Source: Thermodesulfobacteriota bacterium (GTDB lineage: Bacteria > Desulfobacterota_D > UBA1144). Taken from it: a stretch of DNA of 64,000 nt. Below are positions 7,823 through 64,000 of this stretch, in pieces. The stretch covers positions 23,547 through 87,546 of the forward strand of contig JAURPH010000008.1 in assembly GCA_030835345.1 (NCBI GenBank), read 5' to 3'. The notes under the pieces are model-generated. The model was not told the origin of the DNA. It worked only from the letters and a program-made list of their open reading frames with translations, and ran no database searches. A program made the position numbers and the translations under genes. Position 1 is the stretch's first letter. The number at the start of each line of letters is the position of its first letter.

Positions 7823-8403
7823 TATTTAGTTTCCAAGATATTTTTAATAAGCTTTTTGCCTTGTTTCGTGAGAATGGATTCAGGATGAAATTGTACTCCT
7901 TCAATGTTTAGTTTTTTATTTAAAATTCCCATGACAATTCCATCTTTAGTTTGTGATGTTATTTCAAAATCTTTTGGTAAAGTTTTTTTGTTAATTATGA
8001 GTGAATGATATCTGGTAGCATCAAAAGGATTAGGTAGACTTTTATATATACCTTTTCCATTATGATAAATTTTTGATGTTTTACCATGCAGTAATTTTTT
8101 TGCTTTTATAATTTCTGAACCAAAAGCATATCCTATTGATTGATGGCCAAGACAGACTCCAAATATTGGAATTTTCCCAGCTAACTTTTTTACTAGATTT
8201 ACTGAAATCCCAGCTTCTTTTGGGGAACAGGGTCCAGGGGATATAAATATGATGTCAGGTTTATATTTCTTTACTTCATTTATGGATATTTCATCATTTC
8301 TAACTACACTTACTTTTGCTCCAAACTCTTCTATATAATGGACCAAGTTATAGGTAAACGAATCATAATTATCAATCATTAATATTTTTTTATTTTTTAC
8401 CAT
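7819..8403 (-). CDS. trpG: Anthranilate / aminodeoxychorismate synthase component II (glutamine amidotransferase)
   Basis: IDNYDSFTYNLVHY, FGVCLGHQSIGYAFG, GVQFHPES; follows trpE with a 14-nt overlap. Confidence 0.92.
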   Translation of the reverse strand: MVKNKKILMIDNYDSFTYNLVHYIEEFGAKVSVVRNDEISINEVKKYKPDIIFISPGPCSPKEAGISVNLVKKLAGKIPIFGVCLGHQSIGYAFGSEIIKAKKLLHGKTSKIYHNGKGIYKSLPNPFDATRYHSLIINKKTLPKDFEITSQTKDGIVMGILNKKLNIEGVQFHPESILTKQGKKLIKNILETKY

Positions 8404-58164: not shown

Positions 58165-60384
58165 TTACAATTCCTTATATTTTTTTCTTAACTTAATTCT
58201 TACTGTTTCAGCAATAGAGTTGATAATAAATGTAAACATAAATAATATAATTGAAGATAAAAATAACATTCTGTATAGACTTCCACCAACGGGTGCTTCA
58301 GGGATTTCAACTGCTATATTCGCTGCCAAAGTTCTAAATCCATTAAATATATCCCAATCCATTATTGCAGTATTTCCAGTAGCCATCAATACAATCATTG
58401 TTTCCCCAATCGCTCTTCCGATTCCAATCATTACACCACTAAATATTCCTGGACTTGCACTAGGCAAAACAACTTTTAATGCTGTTTGCCATTTAGATGC
58501 TCCAAGAGCTAAAGATCCAGAAACAAGATGTTGGGGAACATTAGATAATGCATCTTCAGAAATTGTAAAAATTATAGGTATAACCGCAAATCCCATTGCA
58601 ATACCTATAACTAAAGCATTTCGTTGGTCATAGTTAACACCGGCTGATTGATAAAGCCAGTCAGTGAAGCTTCCAAAAAAGATAGTATTTTCTATGAATT
58701 CCCCAAGCACTAATCCTAGGTAAAAAATTATAATTATGATTGGAATTGAGATCACAAAAAACTGAATTCCTTCTGTTTTAATAATTGTCTTTTCTTTAAT
58801 TTTTTCCCATATTGGTGGTAAGGCTAAAGATGAAAGTATTAATAAAATGGGAAAAATAATAACCCCAACGAGAACAGAATCTAGCCTTGGTGCAAGCCAT
58901 AAACCAGCAAGGAAACCTAGTACTACACTAGGCAGGGCAGCCATAATCTCAATTACAGGTTTAATAATATTTTTAAGTCTTGGAGCCATAAATTGTGATA
59001 CACAAATTGCAGCTAATATTGCAATTGGAAGCGCAAAAATAACAGCATAGAATGTTCCTTTTAAAGTTCCAAAAATAAGGGGTATTAAGCTTAATTTTGG
59101 CTCAAAATCATCTGTACCACCTGCTGATTGCCAAACATATTCGGGTTGTTGAAAACCTTCATACCAAACTTTAGTAAAAGTGCTTTTTAAACTAGTTTCA
59201 GGATGTTCAATATCAAATTCATTTATTTCTATATTGTTATTTTGAAAACTTAATAATCCAATGTCCTTAAAAGCGAAATTGATTAAGTCATAGTCTTTTA
59301 TTTTAAAATTAAGTAGTTCTTTCCCTGAGGTAGTAGAACTAATCTTCACATTTCCTTTTGTATCCACAGAAGTAAATATTTTTTTTAAATTTCCCCTAAA
59401 TGCATTCTTGATAGGATGCTCATGTTTTGGAAGCTCTCTAATTTTTAATAAATTATTATTAATTAGAAAAAAAACAAAGTTTGAACCATTTTGATCAGAA
59501 ATCACCATAGAGTTTCTACCACTCAACATCGTAATTTTATTAATTTGATTTTCTGATAGTTTGAATTGCTGAAGCAAAACAACTTGATTGTTTTCTATAC
59601 TCCATAGAAATATTTCCCCTCCTTCACTTGCCGCTACTACTTTATTTTTATGAAAATACAAACCTATATCAGTTGGTGGATTTCTTAAATTAGTTGTTAA
59701 GTTGTAAACTTTATTCACTGAAGATGTTTCTAATGATTCCGATAGTATTTCTTCATTGTTTTCTTCTGAATGAAAGAATTTTATTTCTTTATTTGAATCC
59801 AACACTACGGCAGTAACTGACTCTTCATTTTCAATAAGATCGAATTTAATTATAGCATTTTCACTTAATGTTATAGATGTGCTAGGAATTATCATTAAGT
59901 CTACAATTCTGTCTAAATTGCTTGTATATTTTAATTTAAATTTCAATTTGAATGATAAAATTCTTCCACTACTTGTACCTAGAGCTAAGATTCTATCTAA
60001 ATCCCCAGCAAAGCTGTTTGACGAAACAATGGTTTCATTTTCTAAAAGGACAGGTGAATATGTGTATTTAATTTTTCCAGTATTTAAATTATAAAAATTT
60101 AATTGGCCATCTTTGTTCACAAATAGCAGATTTTCATTATATTCATCTGGATAAAAATCAATAATATTTTCAGAAATTTCTTTGTCTGTTAAAAAATTTT
60201 TATTTGAATCTACTTGGTAACTTTTAAATAAAGGAACAGCCTCTTTTCCTATAAAGAAAATTATCAAAAAAATTGAAAGAATTATAAAAAAACCGCCAAA
60301 AGCAAAAATACTCTTAGCGGCATTATCTTTGAATTTTCTAAAAGGCTCAATTTTTTTTCTTATATTATTTTTAAACTGAGCCAT
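58165..60384 (-). CDS. pstC: Phosphate ABC transporter permease PstC (large form with N-terminal periplasmic extension)
   Basis: 739 aa; C-terminal ALPSVVLGFLAGLWLAPRL, ALGASKWQTALKVVLPSASPGIFSGVMIGIGRAIGETMIVLMATGN; N-terminal region of about 400 aa with repeat-like beta segments. Confidence 0.94.
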   Translation of the reverse strand: MAQFKNNIRKKIEPFRKFKDNAAKSIFAFGGFFIILSIFLIIFFIGKEAVPLFKSYQVDSNKNFLTDKEISENIIDFYPDEYNENLLFVNKDGQLNFYNLNTGKIKYTYSPVLLENETIVSSNSFAGDLDRILALGTSSGRILSFKLKFKLKYTSNLDRIVDLMIIPSTSITLSENAIIKFDLIENEESVTAVVLDSNKEIKFFHSEENNEEILSESLETSSVNKVYNLTTNLRNPPTDIGLYFHKNKVVAASEGGEIFLWSIENNQVVLLQQFKLSENQINKITMLSGRNSMVISDQNGSNFVFFLINNNLLKIRELPKHEHPIKNAFRGNLKKIFTSVDTKGNVKISSTTSGKELLNFKIKDYDLINFAFKDIGLLSFQNNNIEINEFDIEHPETSLKSTFTKVWYEGFQQPEYVWQSAGGTDDFEPKLSLIPLIFGTLKGTFYAVIFALPIAILAAICVSQFMAPRLKNIIKPVIEIMAALPSVVLGFLAGLWLAPRLDSVLVGVIIFPILLILSSLALPPIWEKIKEKTIIKTEGIQFFVISIPIIIIIFYLGLVLGEFIENTIFFGSFTDWLYQSAGVNYDQRNALVIGIAMGFAVIPIIFTISEDALSNVPQHLVSGSLALGASKWQTALKVVLPSASPGIFSGVMIGIGRAIGETMIVLMATGNTAIMDWDIFNGFRTLAANIAVEIPEAPVGGSLYRMLFLSSIILFMFTFIINSIAETVRIKLRKKYKEL

Positions 60385-60399
60385 AAATTTTTTACCTTG

Positions 60400-61356
60400 T
60401 TAGTTTAATTGTTTTAACACATCATCAACTTGTTTTTTATTTAGTGGAATATATCCATCTTTTATTACTACTTCTTGACCCTCTTTACTTAATGCAAATT
60501 GAATAAATTCATAAACCAATGGTTCTAATTTTTCCCCAGGCTTTTGATTCACATAGAATTGTAAAAATCTAGCTAATGGATAAGTCCCTTTTTCTATTGA
60601 TTCAACAGTTGGGTCAGCACATGGTTTCCCTTTTTTACTTAATGCTATTGCTTTAACACCCGAAGTCTTATAGCCAATACCGCTGTAACCAATTGCATAA
60701 AGATCATTTGTTATTCCCTGAACAACAGCTGATGACCCTGGTTGTTCTTTAACAGAGTCTTTATAATCTCCCTTACATGTTGCTTTTTTCTTAAAATAAC
60801 CATATGTGCCAGAAGCTGAATTACGGCCATAAATACTAATAGGTTTATATCTCAATTTTCCTTTAAGGCCAAGTTGTCCCCATACAACAATATCTTCATT
60901 GCCACCACATTTTCTGGTTTTTGAGAATACTGCATCTACCTGCTTGATACTCATACATTCAACGGGATTATCTTTATGAAGAAAAACTGCAAGGGCATCC
61001 ATAGCAGTTCTTATTCTAATTGGCTTATATCCAAAAGCAGACTCAAACTTCTTAACTTCTTTCCCTTTCATTTTTCTAGACATTGGTCCTATATTACTGG
61101 TACCAGCAATTAGTGCAGGTGGGGCAGTACTAGATCCTTTACCTTCAATTTGACACTTAACATTTGGGTAAACTTTTGTGAAGCCCTCACACCATAGTGC
61201 CATCATATTATTCATAGTGTCTGATCCAACACTAGAAATTGTTCCACTGACACCACTAACTTTTTTGTATGCTGGGATTGCTGGATCAACTTCTAAAGCA
61301 AAACCCGGTGATACCATAAGAACAAAAAGTGTAAAACTTAATAAGAATTTTTTCAT
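60400..61356 (-). CDS. pstS: Phosphate-binding protein PstS
   Basis: Signal peptide; SSVGSDTMNNMMALWCEGF, EGKGSSTAPPALIAGTSNIGPMSR, GRNSASGTYGYFKK. Confidence 0.96.
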   Translation of the reverse strand: MKKFLLSFTLFVLMVSPGFALEVDPAIPAYKKVSGVSGTISSVGSDTMNNMMALWCEGFTKVYPNVKCQIEGKGSSTAPPALIAGTSNIGPMSRKMKGKEVKKFESAFGYKPIRIRTAMDALAVFLHKDNPVECMSIKQVDAVFSKTRKCGGNEDIVVWGQLGLKGKLRYKPISIYGRNSASGTYGYFKKKATCKGDYKDSVKEQPGSSAVVQGITNDLYAIGYSGIGYKTSGVKAIALSKKGKPCADPTVESIEKGTYPLARFLQFYVNQKPGEKLEPLVYEFIQFALSKEGQEVVIKDGYIPLNKKQVDDVLKQLN

Positions 61357-61397
61357 AAATTCCTCCTTAATATTTTTACATAATTAAAAAGGCTAAT

Positions 61398-61436
61398 TGT
61401 TAAGATTGTGTTAAGAAATTGTAAACATCTAGTTAA
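61398..61436 (-). promoter_or_regulatory. Putative Pho-box array: four 11-bp-phased repeats (TTAACT-TTTACA-TTAACA-TTAACA) upstream of pstS
   Basis: Minus strand TTAACTagatgTTTACAatttcTTAACAcaatcTTAACA; plus-strand starts 61431, 61420, 61409, 61398, exact 11-nt period. Outermost repeat overlaps the phoR stop codon. Confidence 0.75.
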
Positions 61437-62793
61437 CAATAGGCAGTGTAATTTTAAAAAAAGCACCATCGTTGAATGGGAGAGCTTCAATCTTGCCTTC
61501 ATGAAGATTTACAGCATGTTTTACTATACTCAACCCAAGGCCAGTGCCAGTTAAATCTTTAGACCTGCTTGAGTCTATTGTATAAAATCTTTCAAAAATT
61601 TTTTCTAAATTTGCAGGGTTTATTCCCGGGCCATTATCTTTTATTTCAATGATAATTTTATCTAAATTTTGAATAATATTAATTTCAATCTTTCCATTAT
61701 TAGGAACAAATTTTAATGAATTTTGTAATAAATTAGTGAATATTTTTTCTAGCTCACTTGAATAACCATTAAATGGAATGGATGCATTTTGATAATTTTT
61801 TATTATTTTAATTTTCTTATCATTTTGTGAAGAAAAAATTATCTCCTCTACATTATCAATAAGTCCTTTTAGGTCAACAATATGTCTTTCAACATCCTTA
61901 CTCTTTTCTTTGTTTTCAATTTCTGAAAGGACAAGAAGATCTTGAGTGATCTCATTTAATCTACTTGAGTTCCTTTCAATGATATCTATCATTTTATTAG
62001 TTGTTTCATTTTCTTTTCCTATATTTGCATTAAGGAGTTCAATGGCACCAATGATTCCACTCAAGGGTGTTCTCAACTCATGAGACACATTTAAAACCAA
62101 CTCTTCTTTAATTTTATTTATTTGTCTAGTTTCGGTGACATCACTTAATGTTATTAGCATTTTGTTTTTATTGTCATCTATATATCCAATCCTAACTACC
62201 AAAATTTTATCCAAAGTAGTTCCTAGTGATATTTCACTCTTTATATAAGATTTCTTTTTTTTTGCTATATCAACTACATCACTAAATGAACTATTAAAAA
62301 ATATTTCCCAATATTTTTTATTAATACAAGATTCTGTACTTGGAATACCTATGATTTTTTTTAGTTCATTATTGATATAAATAATCCTATCTTCTTTGTT
62401 TTCAATTACCATTAAGCCAAACTTTATATTCGCAAGAATATTTTCTAGTTCATTTACTGAATTTTTTTCTTTTGATAATTCTTTTGAGAACGAGTCTATA
62501 ATTTCATATGTTGCTTTATCATAAGAGTCTTTTGCTTTTACTAGATTTATATCACTAGTAAATTTTCCACTTATTATTTCATTAGATAATCTTTTAATTT
62601 TCCTTGCTGAGGATATTAACCTAATTACAAAAATTACAGAAAATATATATATAATTGTTGATAATTGAAAAAAAATGTTCGATAAGAAATCTAGAAAATT
62701 TTCACTATTAAGAATTTGTTCTAAAATTCCGAAGAAATAAAGTATTGTTATGAGAATTATTAAATACCTTCTTCGCTCAAAAATATTAATCAT
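61429..62793 (-). CDS. phoR: PhoR-like sensor histidine kinase
   Basis: Two N-terminal TMs, PAS-like region, NVSHELRTPLSGIIGAIELL (H-box), DNGPGINPANLEKIFERFYTIDSSRSKDLTGTGLGLSIVKH. Confidence 0.92.
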   Translation of the reverse strand: MINIFERRRYLIILITILYFFGILEQILNSENFLDFLSNIFFQLSTIIYIFSVIFVIRLISSARKIKRLSNEIISGKFTSDINLVKAKDSYDKATYEIIDSFSKELSKEKNSVNELENILANIKFGLMVIENKEDRIIYINNELKKIIGIPSTESCINKKYWEIFFNSSFSDVVDIAKKKKSYIKSEISLGTTLDKILVVRIGYIDDNKNKMLITLSDVTETRQINKIKEELVLNVSHELRTPLSGIIGAIELLNANIGKENETTNKMIDIIERNSSRLNEITQDLLVLSEIENKEKSKDVERHIVDLKGLIDNVEEIIFSSQNDKKIKIIKNYQNASIPFNGYSSELEKIFTNLLQNSLKFVPNNGKIEINIIQNLDKIIIEIKDNGPGINPANLEKIFERFYTIDSSRSKDLTGTGLGLSIVKHAVNLHEGKIEALPFNDGAFFKITLPIVN

Positions 62794-63475
62794 TTGTATC
62801 TATTATATATCCTATTCCTCTTACGGTCTTAATAATCTTTCCACTACTGGCCAGTTTTTCTCTTAAATTTTTAACATGCACATCAATTGTTCTATCATAT
62901 ATTATTTTATCATCTCCCCAAATTCTTTTCCTTTTGACAAGCTGATCTCTGGATAAGACTCTTCCTTGGTTTTTGATTAGTGCTTCAAGTAATAGAAACT
63001 CAGTTCTTGTTAAGTCGATCTTTTTATCATTTATGAATGTAGAATAAGAATCCATATCTAATCTTATTTCATTTAATATTAAAAAATTTGCTCCAGAAAT
63101 ATTTTTTGTTTTATTTAAAAGTCTTTTAATTTTTGCTACTAGAACCTTAGAGCTTATTGGTTTTATTAGATAATCATTCCCACCAACTTCATGACCAACT
63201 ACAATATCAGATTCAGCTGATTTTGCCGTTATAAAAATAATGGGAATATCTTGGAGTTTAGATTCTTTTCTAATTAATTTACAAGTTTCGATTCCATCTA
63301 GCTTCGGCATCATAATGTCCAAGAGAATTAAGTCTGGGATTACGGATTTACAAAAATTTAAAAGCTCAATTCCGTTTGCAAAGATTTTGGTTTTATAGCC
63401 CTCTTGATTTAAGTTTATAGACAGTATTTCAGAAAGATCTTTTTCGTCCTCAGCTATAGCAATTAATTTGTCCAC
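62786..63475 (-). CDS. phoB: PhoB-like response regulator
   Basis: Receiver PDLILLDIMMPKLDGIETC, winged-helix RDQLVKRKRIWGDDKIIYDRTIDVHVKNLREKL; adjacent to phoR and pst. Confidence 0.93.
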   Translation of the reverse strand: MDKLIAIAEDEKDLSEILSINLNQEGYKTKIFANGIELLNFCKSVIPDLILLDIMMPKLDGIETCKLIRKESKLQDIPIIFITAKSAESDIVVGHEVGGNDYLIKPISSKVLVAKIKRLLNKTKNISGANFLILNEIRLDMDSYSTFINDKKIDLTRTEFLLLEALIKNQGRVLSRDQLVKRKRIWGDDKIIYDRTIDVHVKNLREKLASSGKIIKTVRGIGYIIDTND

Positions 63476-63524
63476 ATATAAAGTATTGAATAATTTTCAA
63501 AAAAAAAAATAAATTTTTTAGAAA

Positions 63525-63552
63525 TTAACATATTTTTAACAAAATATTTACA
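63525..63552 (+). promoter_or_regulatory. Putative Pho-box array (distal): TTAACA-N5-TTAACA-N5-TTTACA
   Basis: Hexamers at 63525, 63536, 63547 with exact 11-nt period in the phoB/porin divergent intergenic region; candidate -10 TATTAT at 63565. Confidence 0.75.
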
Positions 63553-63604
63553 AATATAATTATTTATTATAGACTTCATGGGTAGATAATAGCGATAATA
63601 TATT

Positions 63605-63654
63605 TTAATCTTTTATTAATCAATTCTTAATAGAAAATTAACAATTAGTAAATA
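63605..63654 (+). promoter_or_regulatory. Putative degenerate Pho-box array (proximal): TTAATC-TTAATC-TTAATA-TTAACA-TAAATA at 11-bp period
   Basis: Hexamers at 63605, 63616, 63627, 63638, 63649; weaker matches than the other arrays. Confidence 0.5.
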
Positions 63655-63695
63655 TATTCTTTAGTAATAATTAATTTATTCTCAAGGAGGTTTAC

Positions 63696-64000
63696 ATGAG
63701 AAATTTTGTAATTATTTATTTATTAGTTGCATCTATCTTTATTGGACCCGCTGCATTTTCTAAGGAAGTTGCGACGGCTAATATGGATGGTGATTCTGCT
63801 GCTGATAAATTTGCTACTACTTTTGGTAGTGATTTAGATACTGAAGCAAAAGATTTTAAAGTAAGCTGGAAAGCTGGTAAAGGATTAACTTTTAAATCTG
63901 GTGATGCTTTTAAACTTTCTCTTGGTGCTAGAATTCAAGCACGAATGGATAGTTGGGAAAAAAGTGATGACACACAAGATGGTAGAGGTTATGAGTTTGG
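63696..64000 (+). CDS. Phosphate-selective porin O/P-like outer membrane protein (3' truncated by window edge)
   Basis: AAGGAGG at 63684-63690, ATG at 63696, signal peptide MRNFVIIYLLVASIFIGPAAFS, then WKAGKGLTFKSGDAFKLSLGARIQARMDSWEKSDD. Absent from ORF track because it runs off the window. Confidence 0.82.
   Translation, partial: MRNFVIIYLLVASIFIGPAAFSKEVATANMDGDSAADKFATTFGSDLDTEAKDFKVSWKAGKGLTFKSGDAFKLSLGARIQARMDSWEKSDDTQDGRGYEF

Follow-up and report, generated by a model that had tools for sequence, protein, structure and literature searches.

Tandem TTAACA-type repeats as probable PhoB operators at a phosphate-control locus of a Thermodesulfobacteriota bacterium

The tandem TTAACA-type repeat upstream of phoB at positions 63525–63552 of the window (the whole 64,000-nucleotide stretch analyzed here) is, very probably, bound by the bacterium's phosphate-starvation regulator and represents a kind of site known in other bacteria. 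We regard it with good confidence as one element of a three-array phosphate-control locus, comprising an array in front of pstS, a porin array at 63605–63643 and the phoB-proximal array itself as an extra, lineage-specific PhoB operator. Pho boxes, TTAAC-type ones included, are already known; what is new is a member with a defined class-wide arrangement. This arrangement, four TTNAYW units with an 11-bp period followed after 9 nt by a −10 hexamer, provides a testable phosphate-control code for an uncultured lineage with a 1-Mb genome and for its class.

Results

The genes of the locus are arranged in the order porin (+), phoB (−), phoR (−), pstS (−) and pstC (−), followed by the remainder of the phosphate transport operon (Table 1). 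A PhoB-family regulator and a sensor kinase are thus both encoded, the best NCBIfam model for the former being TIGR02154, which it matches at 198.9 bits, below the equivalog cut-off of 296.2. PhoB is the only Trans_reg_C (PhoB/OmpR-type DNA-binding) protein detected in the genome (assembly 94% complete), so that no second regulator of that family is at hand to read the repeats. PhoX and PhoD phosphatases were searched for in this genome and none was detected. The full-length porin orthologue from the same genus matches PF07396 above cut-off. PstC is unusually long at 739 aa, its N-terminal half giving weak WD40/beta-propeller matches.

Table 1. Features of the phosphate locus, in window coordinates
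Feature	Position	Strand	Remarks
pstC, permease, long N-terminal extension	58165..60384	−	TIGR02138 above cut-off
pstS, phosphate-binding protein	60400..61356	−	TIGR02136 above cut-off
TTTAAT, candidate pstS −10	61383..61388	−	9 nt past last unit
pstS four-unit array	61398..61436	−	TTAACT.AGATG.TTTACA.ATTTC.TTAACA.CAATC.TTAACA; E 1.5e-12, but a training sequence of the model
phoR, sensor kinase	61429..62793	−	expected domains
phoB, response regulator	62786..63475	−	Response_reg and Trans_reg_C domains
TTTTTT, perhaps a fourth, degenerate unit of the phoB-proximal array	63514..63519	+	upstream, in register, 2 mismatches (4-unit scan); weak
phoB-proximal array	63525..63552	+	TTAACA.TATTT.TTAACA.AAATA.TTTACA; putative PhoB operator
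TATTAT, −10 candidate of the original prediction	63565..63570	+	spacing to array not conserved
Porin-proximal four-unit array	63605..63643	+	TTAATC.TTTTA.TTAATC.AATTC.TTAATA.GAAAA.TTAACA; putative core PhoB operator of the porin
TATATT, candidate porin −10	63653..63658	+	9 nt past last unit
Porin gene, 5' end (Porin_O_P)	63696..63998	+	cut by contig end

Re-reading of the letters places the units of the phoB-proximal array at 63525–63530 (TTAACA), 63536–63541 (TTAACA) and 63547–63552 (TTTACA), and the sequence, coordinates and 11-nt period given in the original prediction proved exact throughout. With up to 2 mismatches allowed, the window contains 6 matches to the pattern against a shuffle mean of 0.37, with 0 of 100 shuffles reaching 6. 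Across the 967,636-base assembly, TTWACA(N5TTWACA)2 occurs free of mismatches at 2 sites, the phoB-proximal and the pstS array, both beside phoBR, and the reversed control pattern gives 0 matches in the whole genome. With 1 mismatch, the three-unit pattern is matched only by the pstS array again, its register shifted; one further exact two-unit match lies within a long open frame on contig C12. The earlier assertions that pstS carries an array with the same half-sites and period, and that chance is thereby rendered less likely, are thus borne out, the strict pattern being present at no third site in the genome. Comparison with G001, a genome of the same genus, reveals 18 of 18 unit bases identical amid divergent spacers, which argues for selection on the phoB-proximal array. 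It is very improbable that this array is a low-complexity coincidence or a run of −35-like hexamers: the region is indeed very AT-rich, TTAACA is one base off the sigma-70 −35 hexamer TTGACA, and degenerate matches are common, many matches to the sequence model described below falling near E 0.1–1, but this would account neither for two exact sites that both adjoin phoBR with an empty control, nor for units conserved between diverging spacers, nor for arrays that closely track PhoB and pstS in the class.

Two elements had been overlooked in the original prediction, the fourth unit of the pstS array and the entire porin-proximal array. At 61429–61436 the phoR stop codon and the first pstS-array unit overlap, and bases there serve operator and coding sequence alike, a layout also seen in relatives. 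The porin-proximal array is located between the phoB-proximal array and the porin, about 50 bases past the former and 52 nt from the porin ATG, and its score is reached by 0 of 500 shuffles. Its units are degenerate in this genome (TTAATC, TTAATC, TTAATA and TTAACA); in alignment the array is perfect or nearly so, with register kept, in G001, G002, G004 and G009, and it is conserved at every porin promoter compared. Array register, TATATT and the 52-nt distance are exactly those of G001, and −10 hexamers at equal spacing read TATATT in G001 and G009, TATGGT in G004 and CATAAT in G002. The fixed spacing from box to −10 is found at the pstS array and at 63605–63643 but not at the phoB-proximal array, which has ATTTAT at +10 to +15; this weakens the case for the latter as a promoter element, not that for PhoB binding.

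The original prediction took the phoB-proximal array for a Pho box directed at the porin with TATTAT as its −10. The type of element, matched at pstS, holds, and TATTAT indeed starts 12 nt after the last unit; the promoter assignment is not supported, as this spacing is unconserved, the porin ATG is 143 nt away (the phoB start codon about 50 nt), and the conserved geometry is realized at 63605–63643. A perfect TATAAT also occurs at 63555–63560 in the same AT-rich stretch, so −10 matches here carry little weight. That the phoB-proximal array would be the principal porin Pho promoter, firing from TATTAT at 63565 with the downstream array a decayed relic, we consider unlikely. Its three perfect units next to the degenerate porin-proximal ones, together with the TATTAT downstream, speak for this idea, but porin promoters in the family place the −10 at 9 nt and the start codon 38–52 nt from the array (roughly 40–50 nt across the class), where the phoB-proximal array offers ATTTAT and 143 nt; moreover, in G001 this array likewise lacks a −10 at the conserved distance, and the supposed relic has kept register, hexamer and distance. 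The porin's own switch is probably the second, weaker-looking array at 63605–63643.

Fourteen genomes of the family were compared, with porin matches in 14 of 14, phoB in 6 and pstS in 4. Arrays are present in 6 of 6 PhoB-bearing and 0 of 8 PhoB-less genomes, a split that amounts to fewer than 14 independent observations as the genomes are related, and in which array absence from the PhoB-less G003 and G006 rests on genome-wide scans. Because the porin is universal, and arrays are tied to PhoB with only fragments left in the phoBR-less G011, the operators follow the regulator and not the porin. In G004 and G007 an array precedes a PiT-like transporter (PHO4 match below cut-off) instead of pstS, and in G009 the array adjoining phoB leads to pstS, not to the porin. 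G011, which has lost phoBR, retains between its PiT and porin genes only remnants of their arrays, which face each other. The phoB-proximal array is intact in G001 only, decayed in G009 and absent from G002, G004 and G007, and the three relatives without it have a perfect porin-proximal array. PhoB of G009, which belongs to genus g4, is 83% identical to that of the window, and PhoB of the same-genus G001 only 76%; these identities suggest that the phosphate cassette may have moved horizontally inside the family.

Sixteen arrays, drawn from the family and three other families of the class and each with pstS, a Porin_O_P-type porin or a PiT-like transporter as the downstream gene, align gap-free as four TTNAYW units with an 11-bp period, 9 nt and a −10-like hexamer, which reads TA...T in all seven class relatives of the alignment. 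The 64 half-sites fit TTNAYW with few exceptions and do not conform to CTGTCA. The 11-nt direct repeat that defines a Pho box is present in the phoB-proximal, pstS and porin-proximal arrays and in those of relatives, and the arrays are located at phosphate-acquisition genes rather than at random in the genome itself, the family and the class. A sequence-only model was built from 13 arrays, leaving aside the two that lie on the porin side in this genome. In the window, pstS (a training sequence) ranks first, followed by the porin-proximal array at E 0.0057 and then the phoB-proximal array at E 0.053; genome-wide the latter two score E 0.145 and 0.97, and they are therefore credible through position and conservation, not through score alone. 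All other model matches in this genome have E >= 0.05 and were not accepted as further regulon members. The scan that had been proposed for the three-unit motif returns only the phoBR flanks in its own genome, and in family and class arrays of this type are located mostly at Pho genes.

Outside the family, model matches at E <= 0.01 occur in 40 of 44 class genomes, as compared to 0 of the 8 PhoB-less family genomes. Among the 41 non-family genomes of the class that carry PhoB, a set that supplied five training arrays of the model, 33 have an array 59–144 nt upstream of phoB that points away from it and, where checked, adjoins a Porin_O_P gene. Among 30 other class arrays, 28 have an assignable downstream gene: pstS in 20 (most by sequence similarity on inspection, two by Pfam), a porin in 1, a protein of ~196 aa in 5 and a calcineurin-like phosphoesterase in 2. 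In five f4 relatives (L211, L206, L221, L222 and L225) the conserved ~196-aa protein is encoded behind a Pho array; one copy was searched against Pfam with no match, and the protein is a candidate new Pho-regulon member. In L208 and L218, from two f4 relatives, the gene immediately downstream of a Pho-type array is that of the phosphoesterase.

Discussion

From the anatomy of the arrays, their conservation and their co-occurrence with PhoB, we infer a scheme of PhoB phosphorylation, binding and induction. Under phosphate starvation, PhoB would be phosphorylated by PhoR; PhoB~P would then occupy the direct repeats as dimers in head-to-tail orientation and bring RNA polymerase to the pstS and porin promoters. 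Transcription of pstS would be driven by its four-unit array and that of the porin by the array at 63605–63643, from the −10 at 63653. The phoB-proximal array would most likely assist the weak porin array by raising PhoB occupancy, influence the phoB promoter at a distance of about 50 nt, or do both. An auxiliary porin site and/or a site for phoB autoregulation is the more likely reading, over a separate porin promoter, the role being less certain than the nature of the element. In such a scheme, a detectable Pho regulon can shrink to two promoters beside the regulator, with neither PhoX nor PhoD detected.

Should the array serve phoB in the first place, PhoB bound some 50 nt ahead of the phoB start codon would autoregulate phoBR from an operator that is reversed relative to the gene. 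Pho regulators are often autoregulated, this is the array nearest to phoB, and a conserved AAATTATTNAATA block just before the phoB start in relatives resembles a −10 region. Still, Pho boxes of the canonical kind have a direction, which in this array leads away from phoB, and G002, G004 and G007 keep phoB without it; we therefore hold this exclusive role to be possible but not the favored one. In a search for an array directed at phoB, the best score on that strand came only from overlap with the TTAA-rich porin array, read as its reverse complement, and this candidate was discarded.

The arrays differ from the E. coli Pho box in their half-site (TTNAYW versus CTGTCA), in having four units as a rule, and in the spacing of the −10 from the last 6-mer (9 nt versus about 10–11). 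The recognition helix reads RTIDVHVKNLR here versus RTVDVHIRRLR in E. coli. The idea that Asn in place of Arg (E. coli position 201) would pair with A in place of G in the half-site was dropped, as Asn occurs in all relatives matched and hence offers no contrast. The PhoP box of Bacillus subtilis, as described by Hulett's group, reportedly consists of TTAACA-like repeats with a period of about 11 bp and a four-unit core; half-site and core would thus be nearly identical to those found here, but B. subtilis is Gram-positive, without an outer-membrane porin. PHO boxes in general are 11-nt direct repeats with a half-site that differs between taxa (PMC4415409), and with the E. coli box (CTGTCAT) the present arrays share such repeats in place of a −35, the position upstream of pstS and other phosphate genes and a PhoB-family reader (PMC4415409; PMC3333781). 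The cyanobacterial SphR box, composed of at least three tandem CTTAACCT units with an 11-bp period (8 + 3), is alike in its TTAAC core, period, unit number (at least three) and occurrence at pst promoters; it belongs to another phylum and has CCT after CTTAA in its consensus, and the portion of the source concerned with the box describes no divergent phoB–porin operator (PMC1906773). For PhoB of Desulfovibrio vulgaris (DVU1083), an experimentally verified short direct repeat precedes pstS-C-A (PMC3333781); instead of TTNAYW its consensus reads (c/t)GT(n)AC, and the spacer measures 4 bp.

The phoBR cassette itself is rearranged in two relatives. At 7856–12502 of L071 (G009:C18:48000-63283) phoBR has the opposite orientation to that in the window, with phoB divergent from pstS and phoR toward the porin. 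The arrays on either side have TTAACTAGAAGTTTACT in common, as if inverted arrays had recombined and thereby flipped the cassette, an assembly error being possible. At about 5160–5300 of L073 (G011:C1:112000-122000) phoBR is missing, with the junction within two arrays and the PiT-like transporter and porin directly divergent. Inverted Pho arrays around phoBR might double as recombination sites, as in the G009 flip and the G011 deletion, and so help the cassette to move, flip or vanish across the family, a notion we put forward as rather doubtful. G001 carries two near-identical phoBR-pst-porin loci, L069 and L074, on contigs C21 and C23, which perhaps represent strain variants within the MAG.
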